Assembly (NCBI RefSeq): GCF_000787575.1
Contig: NW_012236531.1
Location: 1,077,396-1,141,395 of the forward strand
DNA from: Acytostelium subglobosum LB1
Taxonomy: Eukaryota > Evosea > Eumycetozoa > Acytosteliales > Acytosteliaceae
DNA: 64,000 bases
Direction of reading: 5' to 3'
Below, piece by piece: positions 3,121 through 50,652 of the stretch. Position 1 is the first letter of the stretch; each line of letters opens with the position of its first letter. Made by a program: the position numbers and the translations under genes. The notes under the pieces are model-generated. The model saw only the letters and a program-made list of their open reading frames with translations, searched no databases and was not told where the DNA came from.

Positions 3121-3581
3121 ACTAATCTGGTACCATATGAATTAAATTAATAAAAATATAAATAAAATACTGTACCTAATGGTGACCCCTTTAATATTTC
3201 TATTTTATTTGAATCTAATTATCTATAAATATTTAAATAATGTTCATTAATATTCTTATGTCTTTGTATTATTGTTTAAACAATATTGGATTCATATTTG
3301 ACTCAAAGAGTAAGATTACAAATACCATTACTCTTTTAATGATCAAATACTTAAAATATTATACTAATTGTTGACAAAGACCATCACATTAGAGGCCTTA
3401 TTCATGTCTGAACTTAAAGAGAAAATTAAGGACCTTGAACTATCAAATGATCAATTGAGATAAATTACCAATGCAATGCTTCGACTTGGTGAGAATTTTA
3501 TTATTATATTGAAATGGGATTATAAAGCTTTGGAGATGAGAGTNGAACTCTTCCGATCCTAACCTTTCATCAGTACCAGTA
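3121..3581. other. AT-rich disturbed stretch with an ambiguous base
   Basis: This part is much more AT-rich than the rest of the window and has no long reading frame. A 19-codon frame at about 3404 (MSELKEKIKDLELSNDQLR) has coiled-coil character but ends at once. There is an N at 3544, immediately followed by sequence resembling the end of an Illumina adapter. It may be a decayed insertion or a poorly assembled join. Confidence 0.4.
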
Positions 3582-4209: not shown

Positions 4210-4309
4210 NNNNNNNNNNNNNNNNNNNNNNNNNNNNNNNNNNNNNNNNNNNNNNNNNNNNNNNNNNNNNNNNNNNNNNNNNNNNNNNNNNNNNNNNNNN
4301 NNNNNNNNN
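4210..4309. other. Assembly gap (100 N)
   Basis: A run of 100 undetermined bases, the usual placeholder for a gap of unknown size. It lies directly beside a transposase fragment, as expected where repeated copies of an element prevent assembly. Confidence 0.99.
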
Positions 4310-4812
4310 CACTTAACTCAATGATACATACTTCTACTTTGGAATGATACTTCATCTGCAAACACCAGATCCTTGAAGTCAACCAATCTCATAAATGCCA
4401 AGAACTCGAGGTAGTAATGCATGTTGTCCTCCCTGTACTTGTGAATTTGTTTGACTTCTGGTCGTTTCCAAGACCAACGCCAACTTCTGAATATCCTCTC
4501 AATGTGATCATTGGTGATACCATCAAGAGCTGGATTCAGCTTCACAAGTTCACGTCGTATATCCGATATATTGTACTGAGGGTTCTCGACAATGATTGCC
4601 CATACTGTCAACTCGAGAAACAATTGTCCATCCTTTCCAAACTTGCTGTGTCTGTATCCTCCATGACCTAGAGGGTGGAAGGTCGGATCAGATAGTTTTG
4701 TTAAATAGTAATTCACATCAATACCTGTAAGTCGTCTGATCCTGTTCTTGGTGAAATCGCTTTCAAAATAGAGTTTGAGTGCACTTTCTATTCGTTTATC
4801 TTTATCTGTCAT
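4310..4812 (-). mobile_element. Tc1/mariner-IS630-like transposase, N-terminal half, truncated
   Basis: The frame starts at 4812 (MTDKDKRIESALKLYFES) and encodes 164 residues. A helix-turn-helix region with basic residues (KNRIRRLTGID) comes first, then a second helical DNA-binding segment (ISDIRRELVKLNPALDG), and then FADEVSFQSRS, which carries the first Asp of the DDE catalytic triad in the usual D-E-x-x-F context of DDE_3 transposases. The frame ends at a TGA eight codons after the motif, just before the assembly gap, so the remaining catalytic domain is missing. This is a relic of a cut-and-paste DNA transposon; I cannot see terminal inverted repeats. Confidence 0.75.
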
Positions 4813-5105: not shown

Positions 5106-6740
5106 ATGATGAAAGGATTATCACTTATTGACAAACTACTACCAGTTTGGATACTTTTATTCATGGTGGCAGGTATCCTTATTGGATATTATGTGCCAGC
5201 GGTTGAGGAAGCATTCTCCAAGTCTACATTGGCAAGTGTATCCTTACCGATAGCAGTCGGACTGCTACTCATGATGTATCCAGTGTTCTGTCGTATCCAA
5301 TACGAGAAATTGATGCGACAGGTCTTGTTCAAGGATCGCAAGTTCATGTTGCATCAGGTGGGCGTGTCGCTCTTGGTCAACTGGTTGATCGCGCCCTTGA
5401 TAATGGTAGCCATCGCATGGGCTACCTTGCCCGATCTCATGCACTATCGTAGTGGTGTCATCCTCGTTGGAGTGGCGCGCTGCATTGCAATGGTGCTCAT
5501 CTGGAACCGTCTCGCACATGGCAACGAAGAGTTCTGTGCACTGATCGTGGCCGTCAACTCCATCCTTCAGATGCTACTCTACGGCCCACTCAGCTACTTC
5601 TATGTGATCATACTGGGTCGTGGTGACAACCTGGATATCAATATGTGGACGGTAGTTCGCAGCGTGCTCATTTACATGGGCATCCCCCTGGCAGCCGGCT
5701 TCCTCACACGTCTCGCCCTCAAGCGCTATTCATGGTACGAGAAGTACTACCTGCCAATCGTTGGTCGCATGTCCCTGTTGGCACTGCTCTACGTCATCAT
5801 TGTGATGTTCGCGTTCCAAGGCCGACAGATCATCGAGAACATTGGCGAGGTGGTCCGAACTTCCGTACCCCTACTCATCTACTTCATGGTCATGTTCACC
5901 TCGCTCTTTGTATACTGCTACAAGACTGGTGTGCCCTACGATATTGCGGTTCCACAGTCCTTCACCGCCGCATCCAACAACTTTGAGCTAGCCATCGCCG
6001 TCGCAGTCAGCACCTACGGCATCCAGTCCAAGGAGGCATTGGCTGCCACTATCGGACCTTTGATTGAGGTGCCAGTGCTCGTGGCCTTGGTCTACGTGTC
6101 ATTGTTCATTGGCAAGAGGTGGTTCAATCTCGAGTCCAAGTCATCGACCACAGACAATGGCAATCAAATGGAGGCTACCAATCAACTCAAGTCAGAGACC
6201 GAGGAAGTCGTCGAAGAGCAAGATGGTGCCAAGCAAAAGAACAAGTGTTGCGCTGATGGCCAAGATTGCTCTGTAATCACACCTCAGTGTCTCCCCAAGG
6301 AGCAACAAGAGACAGACCCACAAGAGTGTGCCAAGGAGACAAAGAAGAAGACAGTGATCTTTGCCTGCGTGCACAATGCAGGACGATCACAGATGGCCGC
6401 CACATTCTTCAACATCCACAATCGCCATTCCAGTATGGCTGGACTGTCAGCCGGTACTAATCCAGCGGATCACGTACATCCTGTGGTCATGTCCACCATG
6501 TCTGAACGTGGAATTGACCTCTCAACCAATGTGCCACAGAAGTTGACCAGAGAGCTTGCATCACAAGCCTGTATGATTGTCACAATGGGCTGTGGCGAGC
6601 AATGTCCCTATGTTCCAGGCGTCAAGATTGTCGATTGGGGCATTGAAGATCCAAAGAACAAGCCAGAGGATCAAGTCAGATTGATTCGCGATGACATCGA
6701 GCAACGCATCAAGGAGTTCGTCCAGAATGAGTGCTGTTGA
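5106..6740 (+). CDS. Arsenite efflux permease fused to arsenate reductase (Acr3-ArsC)
   Basis: A single intronless frame of 544 codons. Residues 1-340 form an Acr3-type arsenite permease with about ten membrane segments, including the conserved Cys126 in GVARCIAMVLIWN and Glu321 in ATIGPLIEVPVLV, the two residues known to matter in Acr3. A polar linker of about 75 residues follows, with a Cys cluster (KCCADGQDC, Cys395). Residues about 415-544 are a low-molecular-weight-phosphatase-fold ArsC with the catalytic loop CVHNAGRS (Cys421, CX5R) and further Cys at 496 and 500 in VTMGCGEQCPYVPG, a form I associate with actinobacterial ArsC. The protein ends in ECC. The expected action is reduction of arsenate to arsenite in the cytosol and direct export by the same polypeptide. 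The second ATG (MK) could also serve as start. Horizontal transfer from bacteria is plausible but unproven. Confidence 0.93.
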   Translation: MMKGLSLIDKLLPVWILLFMVAGILIGYYVPAVEEAFSKSTLASVSLPIAVGLLLMMYPVFCRIQYEKLMRQVLFKDRKFMLHQVGVSLLVNWLIAPLIMVAIAWATLPDLMHYRSGVILVGVARCIAMVLIWNRLAHGNEEFCALIVAVNSILQMLLYGPLSYFYVIILGRGDNLDINMWTVVRSVLIYMGIPLAAGFLTRLALKRYSWYEKYYLPIVGRMSLLALLYVIIVMFAFQGRQIIENIGEVVRTSVPLLIYFMVMFTSLFVYCYKTGVPYDIAVPQSFTAASNNFELAIAVAVSTYGIQSKEALAATIGPLIEVPVLVALVYVSLFIGKRWFNLESKSSTTDNGNQMEATNQLKSETEEVVEEQDGAKQKNKCCADGQDCSVITPQCLPKEQQETDPQECAKETKKKTVIFACVHNAGRSQMAATFFNIHNRHSSMAGLSAGTNPADHVHPVVMSTMSERGIDLSTNVPQKLTRELASQACMIVTMGCGEQCPYVPGVKIVDWGIEDPKNKPEDQVRLIRDDIEQRIKEFVQNECC

Positions 6741-6759
6741 ACTCACAATTAAACAACAT

Positions 6760-6808
6760 ATAACCATGCTGTGATGTGACAATCCATGACACAGTCGAGC
6801 ATGGTTAT
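6760..6808. terminator. Inverted repeat in the convergent 3' spacer
   Basis: ATAACCATGCT at 6760-6770 is an exact inverted repeat of AGCATGGTTAT at 6798-6808, and CTGTG/CACAG extends the stem across a small bulge. It lies 20 bases after the Acr3-ArsC stop and between convergent genes, so it could fold in either transcript. Its role as a 3'-end or stability element is inference. Confidence 0.5.
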
Positions 6809-7115
6809 ATCAACATCCTTCCCTTCCAACCCTTTAACCTCCAATGGAAGCCACTCCATTGACACTTGAACCTTGATCAATCACTATTATATATTAAGTA
6901 TCAATCCTTGAAGGTTTATATAGTATCCAGGCGGGTTGAGACCTGGTTCAATCAATCAGTCAATCGATCGTACGACACGCTACTGTGATGTTTGTCAGCT
7001 CGGTTATCCATATCTAATGTGAGAATGGATGGACGAGGTCGCAATTAGTCAACGTTCATGTTCCAATTAGTGATGGTTTGGAGAAAAGGAGAGAGAGAGA
7101 GAGGAGATATGGATA

Positions 7116-8873
7116 TTAGGGTCGATCGAATGACTTCTCCTCGAAATCGGGCGCCTGTATACCTAGGTTGACTTGCTCAATCTCGCCACGGACATAGCTA
7201 AAGGCAAAGGTCATTATTGCTATGATGAGGTAGCCAGCCGCCCATTGGTAGGGCAGTGTTGAGCCACTCTGCCACGGCACGTAAACCTCGCCATTGGGAT
7301 TGACACTGTGGATGATGCCAAAGAATGTGAGCACGGCCGTGATGCCCAGGAAGAGCGCAGCCTGCTTTAGCTTGTTATCAAGTACATAGGCCAGCGATGT
7401 GCCCCAGAACAGACTGGTGCAGATGAAGCCGTGCGCCAGCACCACGATCACACCGATCGTTTGAACTGATGCCTCGGATATGTTGAAGGTCTTCTCGACC
7501 AATACTGGGTCGGTGACGGCGAATGAAAGTACGGGCGATACTTGTGAGAGGATGATGTTTACAAACTGGAAGAGTGCTGGGAAGAAGGCAAAGATGATGG
7601 CTGGCGCATGATGTTGTTTGATGCCATTGGGAGTCGGTGGATGGAATGTGGCCGAACAGATCTCAAAGGCAATGAAGATGAAGATTGGGATGATGGCAGG
7701 CTTTGGCAGAATGTTGGTGAGGAATGAGATGTAGCCCAAGAAGCCGCCCAGGCCGATGAGCAGGCCGGTGATCATCGAGTAGCCAGACCTGGCCTTGAAC
7801 TTTTGTTGGAAGACCGAGTGTCCAATGTATGGTGTTGTCTGAGTGGTCGAGCCAAAGAAACTCGAGATGATAGTGCACACGGCGTCGAGGAACAGAACAA
7901 CGCGAGTGTTGTACTCGTTACCGACTGAGACAGCGGCGTCCGTCACTGTGAGGCCTCCAATGTTGACCAGAATGGCGTAGGGCAGCGCGATGGAGATGTT
8001 CTGTTTGATAGCCGTGACAAAGCTGGAGAAGATGTCGGCGGGATGTGGGTAACTCAATAGGTAGTTGGACAGCACGCCGGTGGGCATTGGCACCACCGAT
8101 ATCTTGGCGGCCGCCATGATGTAGTACACTGTCGAGCCGATCACAGCGCTGACCAGCACACCTGACAGATTGAATGGCAGGTTGATGTTGATGATCTGGT
8201 GCTCCTGGTTGACGCGCTGCAACAATATCAGGAATATGAGCCATAGAGAGATCCAGCCAGCCACAGGCTCGACGAGGATCGTTAGAAGCTCGTTAAGTCC
8301 AAGAAGCGATAGACCAATGCCAGCCAACGCGGCCGACTTGCCCACGGGATGGAAGTAGCGCTGAGCGAAACTGACAACGGTCAGCAGAAGCTTGAACATG
8401 CCAATCAGGAAGACTGTGGTGCAGCCGACGAGCCACGCGTCGATTGTGGCGTCGTAGTCTGAGCGGCCGGCCGCCTTGGACTTGACAAAGGCGGGACCGA
8501 CCACAAGCAGCTGCAGGCCGATCGTGGACGGCGCGTCCAGGCCCATTGGAATGGCTGTGTATAGTACGCGGTCCTCCACGTTCTTGTGATCCAGGTAGAT
8601 GGCATAGAGTGACAGTGAGATGCTGCCCAGCATGACGCCCAGTGCTGGGCCGGGTATGAAGAAGAGTGCCACAGTTTCCGATGGCATGCCAAAGTTGTAC
8701 ACGAGAATGGCGTACATTGACGCGATGTTTGCCAAGTTATCCAGCAGCACTGAGAACATTGCATTGATATCGCCAGATGTTGGCATCAGCTGGTTCTTGA
8801 GTGTGTCTGACCATGTCTTTGTTGGACGGTCGATCAAACCTATGTCCGAAGACTTCATTCGTTGATACATCAT
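7116..8873 (-). CDS. NCS2-type (xanthine/uracil/ascorbate family) permease
   Basis: A single intronless frame of 585 residues with at least ten hydrophobic segments. Family traits include LDNLANIASMYAILVYNFGM near the first segment, IPMGLDAPSTIGLQLLVVGP, and the polar re-entrant segment FFGSTTQTTPYIGHSVFQQK, followed by SGYSMITGLLIGLGGFLGYI. The cytosolic ends are short and polar (NLGIQAPDFEEKSFDRP at the C-terminus). It probably imports a purine, pyrimidine or related acid across the plasma or vacuolar membrane; the substrate cannot be read from sequence. MMYQRMKSS gives three possible starts and the most upstream ATG is used. It converges with the arsenic-resistance gene about 375 bases away. 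Confidence 0.85.
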   Translation of the reverse strand: MMYQRMKSSDIGLIDRPTKTWSDTLKNQLMPTSGDINAMFSVLLDNLANIASMYAILVYNFGMPSETVALFFIPGPALGVMLGSISLSLYAIYLDHKNVEDRVLYTAIPMGLDAPSTIGLQLLVVGPAFVKSKAAGRSDYDATIDAWLVGCTTVFLIGMFKLLLTVVSFAQRYFHPVGKSAALAGIGLSLLGLNELLTILVEPVAGWISLWLIFLILLQRVNQEHQIININLPFNLSGVLVSAVIGSTVYYIMAAAKISVVPMPTGVLSNYLLSYPHPADIFSSFVTAIKQNISIALPYAILVNIGGLTVTDAAVSVGNEYNTRVVLFLDAVCTIISSFFGSTTQTTPYIGHSVFQQKFKARSGYSMITGLLIGLGGFLGYISFLTNILPKPAIIPIFIFIAFEICSATFHPPTPNGIKQHHAPAIIFAFFPALFQFVNIILSQVSPVLSFAVTDPVLVEKTFNISEASVQTIGVIVVLAHGFICTSLFWGTSLAYVLDNKLKQAALFLGITAVLTFFGIIHSVNPNGEVYVPWQSGSTLPYQWAAGYLIIAIMTFAFSYVRGEIEQVNLGIQAPDFEEKSFDRP

Positions 8874-11526: not shown

Positions 11527-13232
11527 CTATCTCTTCTCGACCTTCACTTGGAAGGGTGTAGGAACAAATGCCAGTCCAAACAACATGTCCTCATTCATCA
11601 TCTCCTCAGTAGTTCTAACAAACTTGAACTTCTTAAAGAGTATCGATGTCAACAGGAACAACTCTTGCTCGGCCAATGCTGCTCCCAGACAATTACGAGG
11701 ACCAACACCGAATATATATCTTACAATCTTGTTGTTTGGATTGTCCTCTCCCATGAATCGATTGGGATCGAACTCCTCTGGGTCTTGCCAAACGTTTGGC
11801 GACATGAAAGTACTGTAGATGTTCAAGAATATCTGAGTCTGAGGAGAGATAGAGTTGTGTTAGTGAGTGAGCGCGAGGGAGAGAGAGAGAGAGGGAGGGA
11901 TGGATGGGGACACACTTACTCCTTTCTTAATGTGATAACCTCTGAACTCACAGTCCTCGGTGGCGGCATGAGGTACGCCGAGTGGGGCAGTTGGGTATCT
12001 TCGGATGGTCTCCTTGATGATGGCGTTGGTCAATTGGGTACTGTTCTTGTGAGCGATGGTTGGCTCACCTGTGATGGTGGAAAGTTCACAATACATTAAC
12101 TCTTGATACTTTGGTCTGTTGGCCATTGCCTTGATCAATGCTGATACAGTGTTGGCTGAACTGTCTGTGCCGGCGGCGACCAGATCGGCAAAGGAGTAGA
12201 CAATGCCATCGAGTGGGATGGTGCCATTGAAGTACTCTTGAAGGTAGTGGTCGAGGATGTCCTTGGGCTCTTCATCGGGGTTGAATGTCTTGAGACGGAT
12301 GGTGATGATGGACTCGATGTACTTGCACACCTTGATGTTGGTGTCGATGTAGTCGTTCATCAGATCGGACCGGGATCTTCGGAATCGCTTCATCAGGGGG
12401 ATGAAGTCGTCGGGTATCTTGGCGCCGGCCAGATGGAAGCAGTGATTGATCAGGTGGACGATCTCACCGGCTTCGCCATTGAGGTCGTAAGAGAAGTGAT
12501 GGCTGAACAGGAAGCGGAAGATGATATTCAACGAACAGATCTTTACAAGATTGATCGGGTCGAATGCCTCACCAGACTTGGCAAATCTCTCGAACTGATC
12601 ACACAACAAGTTGATCTCTTCTGATATATCCTCCTCCATCTTCTTTATCTTTGTATTAGATATTCCCATCATTGCAATGGACTTTACATGTTTATGATAT
12701 GCACCATTAGCATTCACAATGTTCCTTCCATCTTTGTTTATGTTTGATTGGTCAGTGTGTTAGTGTGAGTGTGTGCGATTGATTGATTGGAATAATTCCA
12801 TCAATGATACATACAGTTCCAGAGCATCCTACTCTCCCTTTGGTATCGATCGACAAACATTGTGGGGTTGTCAACAAAGGCCTCGTGGAGTGTGGCGGGT
12901 TCAGTGAGGACGACGGTTTCGACAGCGCCCATTCTCAGTCTGAATACATTGCCATACTTTTGATACATCTTGTAGAGTGCCAAGTGTGGTTTGTTGCCAA
13001 GTGAATGTAGATTACCAATTAACGGCAATGGTAGTGGACCTGGTGGGTGACGTCTTGCAGGGTTCTTCATTGTTAATGTGTGAGTGAGTATGGGGTGATT
13101 GATCAATGTTAGTTTATCTGTGTGTTGATGTTCAATTCCATCATGATGGAATATCTAGATCAATCAAGTATTTACCTTCTCATTGAATATATAAAGGGCT
13201 ATTAATATTGCCCAAAGTATTAGTATGTACAT
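11527..13232 (-). CDS. Cytochrome P450
   Basis: Four exons: 13176-13232 (19 codons), 12815-13064, 11920-12731 and 11527-11838, all GT-AG and in phase, total 476 residues. Exon 1 encodes only the membrane anchor MYILILWAILIALYIFNEK. The proline hinge RRHPPGPLPLPLIGNLHSL follows. The I-helix motif is AAGTDSS, the K-helix ExxR is KETIRRYP, and the heme-binding loop is FGVGPRNCLG with the axial Cys. The start in exon 1 is preferred over a later ATG because it supplies the expected ER anchor and the hinge then sits at the right distance. It resembles dictyostelid CYP508/513-type enzymes; the substrate is unknown. Confidence 0.92.
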
Positions 13233-26810: not shown

Positions 26811-28892
26811 ATGATATTGGATAACCTTCCATCATTGTTATACAAACAGATCATGGCATTGGTGGATGCTGATGATATAGTTTGTTTATCGTTGACATGC
26901 AAGAGAATGTATGAAAGGAGGAATAAGAAGTCATTCGACTCAACATCTCCATATGTTTACAGAGCATCGAGATCACCTTTGGACCCACAATTGGAACTAC
27001 CTCCAACCAACATTAGCTCACTACTCTATGATCACAATCATCAAGAACCACTCGAAGAAGGTCTACTACCATCAACTCTTACATATCTTAGATTTGGTGA
27101 TAACTATGATGGTGTGATTACAACCAATACTCTGCCATCTTCATTGTTGGAGTTGAGGTTTGGTGCATTGTACAATCAGGGTGAGGGTGTTGTGATCAAG
27201 AGAGGACAAGAGGAGGAACATGACAAGAGAAAGTACAAGGCATGGTTTGGAAGTATCATTGACAAGATATTGACACCAAAGGATGAACCACCCCCCAAGA
27301 CGACACCATTGGTCTTACCGCCATCACTCACCAAGTTAACATTTGGAAAGTCCTTTGATCAACATTTGGATCCTGGTGTGCTTCCAATCTCTTTGACAGA
27401 GCTAACCTTTGGTACGTCATTCAATCAATCTTTGGATGATGGTACACTTCCACGAATGTTGAATACACTTATCTTTGGCGCCAACTATAATCAACCATTC
27501 TTCAATGATGACATATTGCCACCAACTCTTACAAAGCTTCATTTTGGTTCAAACTTTGATCAACATATCCCTATACTACCAGTGTCACTGTTGGAACTTG
27601 TCTTTGGATTCAGATTCAATCATCCAATCATGAAGAAACCACTCCCCGGCTCAATCACAAGGTTGGTCTTTGGATACTACTTTGATCAACCAATGAACAA
27701 TTACACACTACCTACCTCGCTCACTGAGCTATCATTTGCATATGATGAGACTGCCCCTGTCAACAGATCTACACTTTCACCAGAGTTGATGGACACCTTA
27801 CTACCTGGCGAACTACCCAATCCATTGGCAGTGACAGCGTTTGCTGGCAAGTTCCAACACATCATTCAAAAAGATGTACTCCCCAAGAACTTGAAGGTAC
27901 TTCACCTTGGACGAGAGTTTGATCAAGAGATGAAGGTAAAGACATCAATATTCCCACCGACTCTGGTTGAGATAAAGTTTGGAAGAGAGTTCAATCAGTG
28001 TCTAGACATTGGAATTTTTCCAAGGACACTAAAGAGACTCACATTTGGATACATGTACAACAAGATAATCGTACCAGGGGTGCTACCTGAAGCCCTGGAG
28101 CATCTGGAGCTTGGACACTCATTCAATGAAACATTAAGAGTAGGTGCATTCCCTCAAGATTTGGTATCATTAACATATGGACATGATTTCAATCATCAAA
28201 TCAAGATCGGTGTCCTACCAACGAATCTTCAGTACCTCACATTTGGACGCAACTTCAATCAATTGATAAACCAACAAGTTATTCCCAGAGGTTTGTTGAA
28301 GCTTACATTTGGCCATATGTTCAATCAAGAATTGAAACCAGAGTGTCTTCCACCGACCCTGCTTGAACTCAAGTTTGGCGCCAACTATACAACAAATCTC
28401 CATCCTAACTCCTTGCCATCATCACTCAAGACTCTAATGGTGGCTTCCAAACATGCACTGGACGCATTGCCCTATCCACCAAACTTAAAGACAGTGATCT
28501 TTGGCGATTATTCCAAACATACATGGCATGAATATTATGATCTACCAGGCACTGTTAATGAGTTGATCATTCACAAACTTGAATTAACGAATCCAAATGA
28601 AGTTGTCATCCTACCCCAGTCAATCAGTAGGTTGACGTTGGTCTACGATATAGTCCGACATGGTATGGCGGCACTGGTCGAGAGCATACTCATGAACAAT
28701 CCATCAGTAAACTACCTCAGGATGCGACTGGCGACCAAGTTGTACCATGTCAGACTACTGGATCGCAATCACCACTCTGTGCTACTTTGGGAGAACAGCA
28801 TGTTGAGTGAACCTGCCAAATTCACCTCGCTGTCCACAGTGCTCTCTCGTCTGTGTCACACCAATCCATATAAGCAAACAGGGATATATTAA
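26811..28892 (+). CDS. FNIP-repeat protein with F-box-like N-terminus
   Basis: A single exon of 693 residues. The first 45 residues (LPSLLYKQIMALVDADDIV, CLSLTCKRMYERR) have F-box character. From about residue 85 to 570 the protein is built from about twenty FNIP-type repeats of roughly 22 residues with the core LPxSLxxLxFGxxFNQ, in variants such as LTFGKSFDQHLDPGVLP and LTFGTSFNQSLDDGTLP. Several repeats have the final Gln changed to His, Lys or Glu. Such proteins form large families almost confined to dictyostelids and are thought to be substrate adaptors, but no member of this type has a firm function known to me. Confidence 0.9.
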   Translation: MILDNLPSLLYKQIMALVDADDIVCLSLTCKRMYERRNKKSFDSTSPYVYRASRSPLDPQLELPPTNISSLLYDHNHQEPLEEGLLPSTLTYLRFGDNYDGVITTNTLPSSLLELRFGALYNQGEGVVIKRGQEEEHDKRKYKAWFGSIIDKILTPKDEPPPKTTPLVLPPSLTKLTFGKSFDQHLDPGVLPISLTELTFGTSFNQSLDDGTLPRMLNTLIFGANYNQPFFNDDILPPTLTKLHFGSNFDQHIPILPVSLLELVFGFRFNHPIMKKPLPGSITRLVFGYYFDQPMNNYTLPTSLTELSFAYDETAPVNRSTLSPELMDTLLPGELPNPLAVTAFAGKFQHIIQKDVLPKNLKVLHLGREFDQEMKVKTSIFPPTLVEIKFGREFNQCLDIGIFPRTLKRLTFGYMYNKIIVPGVLPEALEHLELGHSFNETLRVGAFPQDLVSLTYGHDFNHQIKIGVLPTNLQYLTFGRNFNQLINQQVIPRGLLKLTFGHMFNQELKPECLPPTLLELKFGANYTTNLHPNSLPSSLKTLMVASKHALDALPYPPNLKTVIFGDYSKHTWHEYYDLPGTVNELIIHKLELTNPNEVVILPQSISRLTLVYDIVRHGMAALVESILMNNPSVNYLRMRLATKLYHVRLLDRNHHSVLLWENSMLSEPAKFTSLSTVLSRLCHTNPYKQTGIY

Positions 28893-48839: not shown

Positions 48840-50081
48840 TTATTTAATGAGAGATGATGCGATTGTATCAATATCAATGAATCCAGCATGGACTATTGTG
48901 CTGGTTGTGCGGAAGAACAATCGGTTGGACAATCGACGTAGGCGGAATGGCCGACATCCAAGCTCCAGGTCAGTGATGGATGCTGGAAGATGTTGGAGTA
49001 GTTCCATAATCTGATTATCTTGACAGGTGCTCCAATGTAGTGACTTGAGTGATGCTGGCAGTACAGACGACACCGTGGACATTGATTCGAATGGATCGTT
49101 GGCACAGCGCATTGATAGTCTTGTCAATGATGCGGGTAAATGTCCTGGATGCAGGCGATGTTGATATCCATGGAGAGTGAGTGTTTGGATTGATGATGGC
49201 GATGATGGATGATGCTGTGGCCATATCATTTCGGACAAGTTAAAGTTATTCTCAGATCGATCGATCTTGATATATAGGTCTTCAATTCCCTGTGAGATCG
49301 ATACAATCTGACGAATGGGGATTATTCGCAAAGACCTCAATGATGGCGGCAATGTGGATAGGTCCAACTTTTGTTCGGAGAGACCCGCTGTGGATGTTGC
49401 ACGCATACGAATCAGATATTGAAGCACTGGGAATGAGGTTGATGTTATGGCCTCAAGTACAACATCATCAATACCAAACAGATGGAGTTCTTTGAGATTG
49501 GCGTTGATTGTCTTGGTCAGACCCATTGCCAACGTGTTCGAATAGGCCGTGAGATACTCCAAAGGCGGATGATTGATGATGTGTGGGTACGATTCGGAGT
49601 TCACGTGTAGGCGAGTGATGTTGGGCTGCAGCAGTCCAATGAGAGGCAGATTGAATGAGTGTGATAGTTCCAGCTGAGTCAATGACGGAGGCAGATGAGC
49701 ACGGAGGTTCAAGGGCTGCCCATCATGAGTGGGCGGGATAAAGAGTGTTCGAAGTGATTGAAGTCCAGACCAGTCAATGCTGGCTGGAATAGTTTGGCAA
49801 AAGTATTGAAGATTGGTCAATGTTGGAGGGAGTTTTGATGGATGTAGCCATACGTGATCAGGTTCATTATACTCTATAATGAGTTCGGTCAGGGGTATGT
49901 GGCGCAGGGTGCACTCGAATCTGTTACGGATCAAATTGAGATGAGCACCAACATTTGGTCTTTGATTGAGCACTTCCACCAATTTGTTCCAGAAGCCATA
50001 AATAAAATCAGAATCATTTAAATTGATACCTTCAATGTTTGGTATATCCAATACTTGCTTCTTCCATCCATCACCTGACTC

Positions 50082-50118
<37 letters not shown>

Positions 50119-50459
50119 AATAGAGTGATTGAGTGAGTGATTGAGTGGACATACTTACCATTGTTGATGACGAAGGATTGGTCGTAGAATGACTTCCAAT
50201 TGTCATTGCGGTAGGATTGGAGGTAGATTTGTTGTGGCTTATTGATGATGTTGTCATTGATGATATGTCTGTAAGAGTTCAATGTATTGCGATTTGATCG
50301 ATACTTGTGAAATAAAGGTAGACGAGCAGTGTTGAATGATAGATATACAGCACGATGATCAAACCATCTCTTACACACCATTGAAAACATCAACCTATCA
50401 ACATTATTCTCCAAGAATGATACTATCAACTTTAACACTATTAATGATATCGATTCCAT
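48840..50459 (-). CDS. F-box-like / leucine-rich dictyostelid protein
   Basis: Two exons, 50159-50459 and 48840-50080, total 513 residues. The N-terminus (ISLIVLKLIVSFLENNVDRL, MFSMVCKRWFDHR) is F-box-like. The rest carries irregular leucine-rich units such as LPPTLTNLQYFCQTIP, LPPSLTQLELSHSFNLP, LPPSLRSLRIIPI and LPASLTRLSMRC. These have the LPxSLxxL half of the FNIP repeat without the FG..FNQ half, so it is probably a diverged member of the same family as the FNIP gene at 26.8 kb. The single intron holds a long GATT/CAAT repeat. The stop lies only 70 bases from the stop of the converging transporter gene. Confidence 0.85.
50082..50118. repeat. (GATT)n microsatellite inside an intron
   Basis: About nine uninterrupted GATT units lie within the intron 50081-50158; in the sense of the gene they read as CAAT units just before the 3' splice site. 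Confidence 0.9.
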
Positions 50460-50652
50460 CCTTTATCTCTTTCTTGATTTGTTGTCTTAAAACAAAATGA
50501 TCATTTTGATCAATCTCACGCACCCACACAAAGAGATAGATCTTAAATCTAAGATATTCAATCAGTTTGGTGATCGTCCTTGAAAGACTCAATCACTCGT
50601 TCACTCAATCAATCAAATACACACAATCAATCATTTACAATCAATCAAGGAC

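Follow-up and report, generated by a model that had tools for sequence, protein, structure and literature searches.

The window, by which we mean the whole 64,000-nt stretch of DNA analysed, contains a gene coding for a 544-aa protein in which an Acr3-type arsenite permease is followed by a hydrophilic linker and an ArsC-type arsenate reductase domain (Table 1). The frame runs from ATG to TGA with zero internal stops, and the domains TIGR00832 and PF01451 were both found within it, which confirms the observation of the original prediction that Acr3 and ArsC share a single ORF; Cys126, Glu321, the CVHNAGRS loop with Cys421, Cys496, Cys500, the linker motif KCCADGQDC and the terminal ECC all lie where that prediction had placed them. 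Eight functional residues are conserved in an alignment (A4) with 30 bacterial Acr3 rows, including a planctomycete fusion, and 29 ArsC rows. The AlphaFold model of the whole chain has a mean pLDDT of 86.8, with both domains mostly above 90. Overall, the gene looks real and functional. Just 3′ of the stop codon, at 6758-6810, there is an inverted repeat with 24-nt arms, a 5-nt spacer and 79% complementarity.

Table 1 Features of the acr3-arsC fusion gene (positions in the window; aa numbering of the encoded protein)
Feature	Position	Strand	Basis
Whole gene, Acr3-linker-ArsC	5106..6740	+	uninterrupted 544-codon frame
Acr3 arsenite permease domain, ten predicted membrane helices, bile-acid-symporter fold	5118..6122 (aa 5-339)	+	TIGR00832, AlphaFold, Foldseek
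Cys126, As(III)-binding Cys of Acr3 (by equivalence)	5481..5483	+	C in 30/30 bacterial rows
Glu294, equivalent of CgAcr3 Glu305 (proposed proton coupling)	5985..5987	+	E in 30/30 rows; spacing to Cys
Glu321	6066..6068	+	E in 30/30 rows; by spacing not the Glu305 equivalent
Hydrophilic linker, 5 Cys, largely disordered in model	6123..6341 (aa 340-412)	+	pLDDT <50 segments confined to aa 365-411
CCADGQDC cluster, possible As(III) site	6246..6269 (aa 381-388)	+	absent from bacterial Acr3 tails
ArsC domain, low-molecular-weight phosphatase type	6342..6728 (aa 413-541)	+	PF01451; best PDB match 3t38
Catalytic loop CVHNAGRS, nucleophile Cys421, Arg427	6366..6389	+	C and R in 29/29 ArsC rows
GCGEQC, resolving Cys496 and Cys500	6588..6605	+	both C in 29/29 ArsC rows
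C-terminal ECC	6729..6737	+	CC in 0/124 bacterial ArsC C-tails

Genomic context

Runs of N occur in the window only at 3544 and 4210-4309, leaving 4310-64000 N-free. The same N-free stretch carries genes for a four-EF-hand calmodulin-like protein, a Stealth/Notch-repeat protein, LepA and a PLP enzyme, as well as a split P450 gene, the first exon of which covers profile positions 89-367, with positions 361-435 continuing beyond an intron. Within this intron (GTAAGT...CAG) the frame is closed by a TAA at 11862; it reopens at 11838, and the haem motif is located at 11712. The window also codes for an F-box protein with ten FNIP repeats (333 bits), repeats which we take to mark dictyostelids, so the dictyostelid host that the original prediction had assumed is now supported. 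F-box proteins with FNIP repeats are encoded at 26811-28889 and 48843-50462 and are useful for naming the host group.

The synonymous codon score of the gene is 0.165, compared with 0.051-0.216 for the 16 other ORFs of the window on which the scoring was trained, each left out in turn. By part, the Acr3 half scores 0.13, the linker 0.198 and the ArsC half 0.236, that is, in or just above the same range, and the mean for 163 bacterial acr3 genes is 0.005, with 14 of them reaching the value of the Acr3 half. Taken together, the FNIP/F-box protein and the intron-split P450 gene on a gap-free stretch and the host-like codon use indicate that the gene belongs to a dictyostelid-like eukaryote. Contamination or an assembly chimera, for which one could point to the N gap about 800 bases upstream of the gene, is very improbable, given that the gene and intron-bearing eukaryotic genes share a stretch free of N and that its codon use is host-like.

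The convergent neighbour at 7116-8873 (minus strand) codes for 585 aa, has a GC content of 54% and matches no Pfam family at 1e-3; weak tblastn matches (25-28%) to it are present in 5 plasmid records, some of them annotated as xanthine/uracil-type permeases. Next to the assembly gap, some 300 bases 5′ of the gene, a 164-aa ORF (4318-4812, minus strand) resembles, by eye, a piece of a DDE-type transposase; Pfam gave no match to it at a threshold as permissive as E 1. A search of the window against Rfam returned one tRNA and nothing else. Neither GC content nor arsenic is mentioned in PMC4334915.

Acr3 half

The Acr3 family model TIGR00832 covers aa 5-331 of the N-terminal half (371.1 bits; the cut-off is 282.8), and PF01758 matches this half with 146.8 bits. 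Its predicted structure has the ten-helix bile-acid-symporter fold, and in Foldseek it matched bacterial bile-acid symporters, including 4n7w_A with a TMt of 0.85. With ten helices and a cytosolic N-terminus, 17 Lys and Arg residues of the loops fall inside and 5 outside, which would put both chain ends inside and the ArsC domain in the cytosol.

In Acr3 of Corynebacterium glutamicum, according to the part of PMC3317726 available to us, Glu305 was shown to matter and Cys129 is conserved, the two being 176 residues apart. Cys126 is taken as the equivalent of Cys129. The distance from the column of Cys126 to that of Glu294 is 176 in 21 of the 30 bacterial rows, 177-178 in nine and 168 in this protein, and the Glu321 column lies 203-205 residues past the Cys in the bacterial rows. 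Since the Cys-Glu spacing matches, it is Glu294 (in NNFELAIAVA), not Glu321, that corresponds to the coupling Glu305; thus, the presence and conservation of Glu321, pointed out in the original prediction, were borne out, but as the coupling residue Glu294 fits instead. The conserved Cys of TM4 and the coupling Glu that characterise Acr3 are accordingly both represented, C126 and E294 being invariant in the alignment.

ArsC half

PF01451 matches aa 417-538 with 63.8 bits against a cut-off of 23.2. The best PDB match by sequence is 3t38 (E 1.6e-28), titled thioredoxin-dependent Cg_ArsC1', in which TMGCGDVCP aligns with GCGEQC. The CX5R loop and the two resolving cysteines of thioredoxin-type ArsC are all present (C421, R427, C496, C500), and Asp515 is likewise invariant in the 29 ArsC rows. 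The predicted fold is also of this type, with a TMt of 0.92 to S. aureus ArsC 2cd7 and 37% identity to 3t38 in Foldseek. The scores with the NCBIfam ArsC models PRK13530, TIGR02689 and TIGR02691 (64.3, 56.3 and 48.6 bits) are far below the respective cut-offs (215, 157.6 and 174.3), and judged by these profiles the domain is not a member of the three subfamilies. The mycothiol-dependent 3rh0 is without the GCGxxCP pair in the alignment; as mycothiol is an actinobacterial thiol, it is the thioredoxin type of ArsC that could function in an amoeba.

The block VTMGCGE.CP, considered actinobacterial in the original prediction, proved not to be specific to that phylum, as the planctomycete locus L167 carries VTMGCGEECPFVPG. 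The ArsC of this locus (L167:6532-7221), which pairs with the one described here in a tree, has in the same frame an N-terminal ThiS (sulfur-carrier, ubiquitin-like) domain (PF02597, 49.9 bits) and is therefore a ThiS-ArsC fusion.

Linker and additional cysteines

The linker of about 70 residues contains cysteines at positions 381, 382, 388, 395 and 408, and the chain ends with Cys543-Cys544. None of the 159 bacterial Acr3 tails examined has the pattern CC-x(4-6)-C in its first 60 residues or CC at any position, and 8 of them contain a Cys at all. The Cys density alone is not strong evidence because at least five Cys per 70 residues were counted in 24 of 982 windows of the other ORFs of the 64-kb window. 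Outside the linker, further cysteines are found at 62, 271 and 489, positions occupied most often in bacteria by Ala, Ser and Asp, respectively, so the gain of cysteines may be general drift.

By analogy, the linker cysteines and the terminal pair could keep arsenite near the pump, and the handover of arsenite by linker thiols, suggested in the original prediction, is likewise something that we infer. The arsenic chaperone ArsD holds arsenite with three cysteines. One could go further and suggest that a bacterial gene pair was fused by a eukaryote unable to translate an operon and that an added Cys tether (CC-x5-C and the terminal CC) captures the arsenite released by ArsC and passes it to Cys126; enzyme and transporter would then be channelled, with the tether acting in cis as ArsD does in trans. 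We regard this as quite unlikely.

An unspliced intron within the linker was also considered and appears unlikely. GT..AG pairs are present, but the frame is open and the codon bias is host-like; the AT content of 50%, with 61-64% in the flanks, is unlike that of an unspliced intron.

Bacterial homologues and gene pairs

The phylum label of each search is that of the titled locus used as the search centre. In the Myxococcota search, 153 of 195 genomes had some match to the whole query, and the ArsC identity was 47-59% among the matches listed. With the ArsC query at E 1e-34, identity reached 57% in Planctomycetota (7 of 149 genomes), 56% in Chloroflexota (12 of 201) and at most 52% in Actinomycetota (29 matches in 27 of 346 genomes), with no match in 198 Bacteroidota genomes. 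Acr3 identity is flatter across phyla: up to 52% in Myxococcota (among the matches listed), 51% in Mycobacterium, up to 52% in Chloroflexota (8 of 151 genomes, E 1e-85) and 49% in Planctomycetota (22 of 199, E 1e-80). For Acr3, the two highest scores (332 and 329 bits) come from myxobacteria, as do those ranked second to tenth for ArsC. Scanning genome and viral contigs for close relatives with the bare protein gave no lead; a further genome-contig scan is a sample (best 80 of 590 candidates).

Genes were considered a pair when located on the same strand less than 600 nt apart. The acr3 gene precedes arsC, as in the fusion, in 88 of 94 pairs and in all 24 listed myxobacterial rows (two duplicates aside). 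Among the Myxococcota loci L100-L124 (25 in all), such a pair with arsC following acr3 is present in 22, the exceptions being L101, L105 and L108; L018 and L022 have one too, the latter being one place with L107. No fused frame was found in the 23 distinct myxobacterial pairs.

Both domains in one open frame were found in none of the first 99 loci and, within the full set of 192, in one of the 163 loci with a long Acr3 match, namely the planctomycete L183. This intact fusion outside mycobacteria (L183:1462-2910) has an ArsC only 36% identical to the one described here. Fusions in mycobacteria, which the original prediction had named, do exist: four of 40 further mycobacterial loci, picked mainly for long frames, contain intact fused ORFs (L212, L226, L229 and L231), and excerpts of PMC6205960 and PMC6514093 describe them as well, the former reporting a 498-residue fusion in M. 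tuberculosis and the latter a fused cluster to which, of 357 actinobacterial ArsC proteins, only proteins of Mycobacterium and Mycolicibacterium belong. The four mycobacterial fusions form no single clade, with three label changes on the tree, and in some relatives (L012 and L023, given for contrast) acr3 and arsC share a frame with one stop between them, so fusion may recur by loss of a single stop. The span from EVPV of Acr3 to the catalytic Cys of ArsC is 26-34 residues in three of these four, 29 in L183 and 96 in the protein described here.

Phylogenetic analysis

All trees contain bacterial rows and this protein, and rows above identity thresholds were removed (131 to 92 for ArsC, 159 to 54 for the first Acr3 tree and 92 to 25 for the joint tree). 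In the ArsC-only tree (92 rows and 129 columns, flagged as few) the protein and the planctomycete L153 are sisters (99/92), and both belong to a clade of 14 myxobacterial and planctomycete rows (100/99). A thinned set, from which eleven long or distant rows and 24 of the 59 remaining actinobacterial rows were dropped, agrees (96/88 for the pair and 100/98 for the clade). The Acr3-only tree (55 rows, with the unrelated long row L169 and six virus rows left out and eight rows added) gave no supported placement: the protein forms a long branch (2.2-2.4) near the base of a bacterial group, and its path lengths to Chloroflexota and to myxobacteria are alike. In AU tests of the single halves, union of Acr3 with ten actinobacteria had p 0.0089 and with the myxobacterial group p 0.255, and union of ArsC with the main actinobacteria had p 0.042; the groups for all AU tests were picked when the tables and earlier trees were already known.

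The very long Acr3 branch near the base of the bacterial group would suit an old eukaryotic Acr3 to which an ArsC domain, alone of bacterial origin, was joined later, and each half could have eukaryotic relatives of its own, the trees covering bacterial rows. We consider such an origin doubtful in view of the myxobacterial top scores obtained with both halves (Chloroflexota Acr3 also reaching 52%), the myxobacterial genes adjoining in the order of the fusion, and the joint tree.

In the joint tree of 25 rows the protein, myxobacteria and actinobacteria fall in an 11-row clade, the branching order of which is not settled. When the fusions were included (32 rows, with the distant L160, L162, L166 and L072 dropped and eleven rows added), the protein grouped with six myxobacterial pairs (98/93). 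Joint AU tests rejected its union with the four mycobacterial fusions (p 2.6e-7, in a test which also forces together those four, not themselves a clade), with fewer of them at a time (L212 and L231, p 2.7e-4; L226, p 7.0e-5; L229, p 1.0e-4) and with the planctomycete fusion L183 (p 1.1e-5), while sisterhood to all 15 actinobacterial rows was not rejected (p 0.071).

It had been proposed in the original prediction that the gene descends ready-fused from actinobacteria, for example mycobacteria. The existence of mycobacterial fusions, the joint p value of 0.071 and a case for gene exchange between mycobacteria and amoebae, argued for another gene in an excerpt of PMC3325273, would fit with this, but such an origin is improbable: the joint tests with the fusions and the tests of both single halves speak against it, as does the short span between EVPV and the catalytic Cys in the mycobacterial fusions measured. 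Searches and trees of each half against bacteria, part of the check suggested there, revealed no nesting in actinobacterial fusions (with the weaker joint value just given), and the ArsC half lies in the Myxococcota/Planctomycetota clade. So of that interpretation the fusion in a eukaryotic genome stands and the descent from mycobacterial fusions does not.

Acquisition ready-fused from an unsampled bacterium, be it myxobacterial, planctomycete or other, has in its favour that fusions arise repeatedly (L183 and the three label changes for the four mycobacterial ones) and that only part of bacterial diversity was sampled. Given the 23 distinct myxobacterial pairs without a fused frame and the rejected grouping with L183, it appears rather unlikely.

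Proposed origin and function of the fusion

With a probability of roughly 0.7, we suggest that the gene is a nuclear one from a dictyostelid-like amoeba, that its product is a single-chain reductase-exporter and that a bacterial acr3-arsC pair, the nearest known relatives of which are myxobacterial, was acquired horizontally and then fused. Judging by the sequence comparisons, the fusion looks independently made relative to the mycobacterial ones, from genes most like the myxobacterial. The points against this explanation are the long branch, the weak Acr3-only placement, the flat 25-row joint tree, the actinobacterial p value of 0.071, the low scores with the three NCBIfam ArsC models, the arsBHC-type gene neighbourhoods of green algae and the possibility that each half has eukaryotic kin; a myxobacterial source of ArsC is further countered by the pairing of ArsC alone with a planctomycete copy, not a myxobacterial one.

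The domains and conserved residues agree with one polypeptide that could, in principle, both reduce arsenate and expel arsenite, as the original prediction had it. If the gene is expressed, the Acr3 half would be placed in the membrane with its C-terminus in the cytosol, where the flexible tail would hold the ArsC domain. Arsenate enters cells by phosphate carriers and would then meet the tethered ArsC; Cys421 would attack it, Cys496 and Cys500 would resolve the intermediate steps, and the thioredoxin of the amoeba would re-reduce the enzyme. Cys126 would bind the resulting As(OH)3, which would leave through an As(OH)3/H+ antiport involving Glu294. This chemistry is established for the Acr3 and thioredoxin-type ArsC families. 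As for the history of the gene, the bacterial pair would have been taken up by horizontal transfer and its two frames joined into one, and such a fusion in a eukaryote would provide both activities in equal amounts from one promoter.

Comparison with known systems

The Mycobacterium fusions (498 aa in M. tuberculosis; cluster C3 in an excerpt of PMC6514093) have the same domains in the same order and an ArsC of the thioredoxin-type clade. They are bacterial, have a far shorter linker and are nested in actinobacteria, whereas the gene described here is eukaryotic, has the long Cys-containing linker and is not so nested; what is shared is the Acr3-then-ArsC frame, and neither common descent nor a very short linker was found. 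The myxobacterial acr3-arsC pairs (for example L102, L111 and L022) are nearest in the joint tree and have the same gene order, but consist of two separate genes; identity to such pairs is 47-50% for Acr3 and 54-60% for ArsC when the more distant L100 and L172 are left out. In Cg_ArsC1' the Cys loop and the GCGxxCP pair align with those of the ArsC half, and the match spans residues 83-204 of the 213-residue chain, with no transporter attached.

In green-algal arsBHC-type neighbourhoods, as described in an excerpt of PMC7826186, a bacterial-type reductase and an Acr3-type pump adjoin as separate genes, together with arsH, and the pump has homologues in fungi, streptophytes and mainly Actinobacteria. 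Yeast Acr2 and Acr3 show the same division into reduction and export, but are two proteins, and Acr2, like the other eukaryotic arsenate reductases named in the available part of PMC3317726 (Leishmania, plant and human), belongs to the rhodanese/Cdc25 superfamily. ArsC homologues have been reported in eukaryotes, namely in green algae and fungi (excerpts of PMC7826186 and PMC11370035, respectively). In AqpS-ArsC of Salinispora (excerpt of PMC6205960) the reductase is also tethered to an exit for arsenite, but to an aquaglyceroporin-like channel and not to an Acr3 antiporter.

No description of a eukaryotic Acr3-ArsC fusion was found in the open-licence literature, judging by titles and abstract openings among the matches listed. 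The main texts of PMC11370035 and PMC8618186 do not mention a fusion, amoebae or dictyostelids, nor does PMC3317726, in the part available, mention a fusion, amoebae or slime moulds; a literature search for transfer from myxobacteria to amoebae gave no lead. Both halves and the fusing of them are already known; what appears new, within the literature searched, is the eukaryotic host, and the probable origin differs from the one first proposed.

With a low-molecular-weight ArsC joined to an exporter, the gene would illustrate cleanly how two paired bacterial genes become one eukaryotic gene, and it is of interest for both gene transfer and enzyme-transporter coupling. It allows a direct test of whether tethering the reductase to the exporter lowers free arsenite in the cell.
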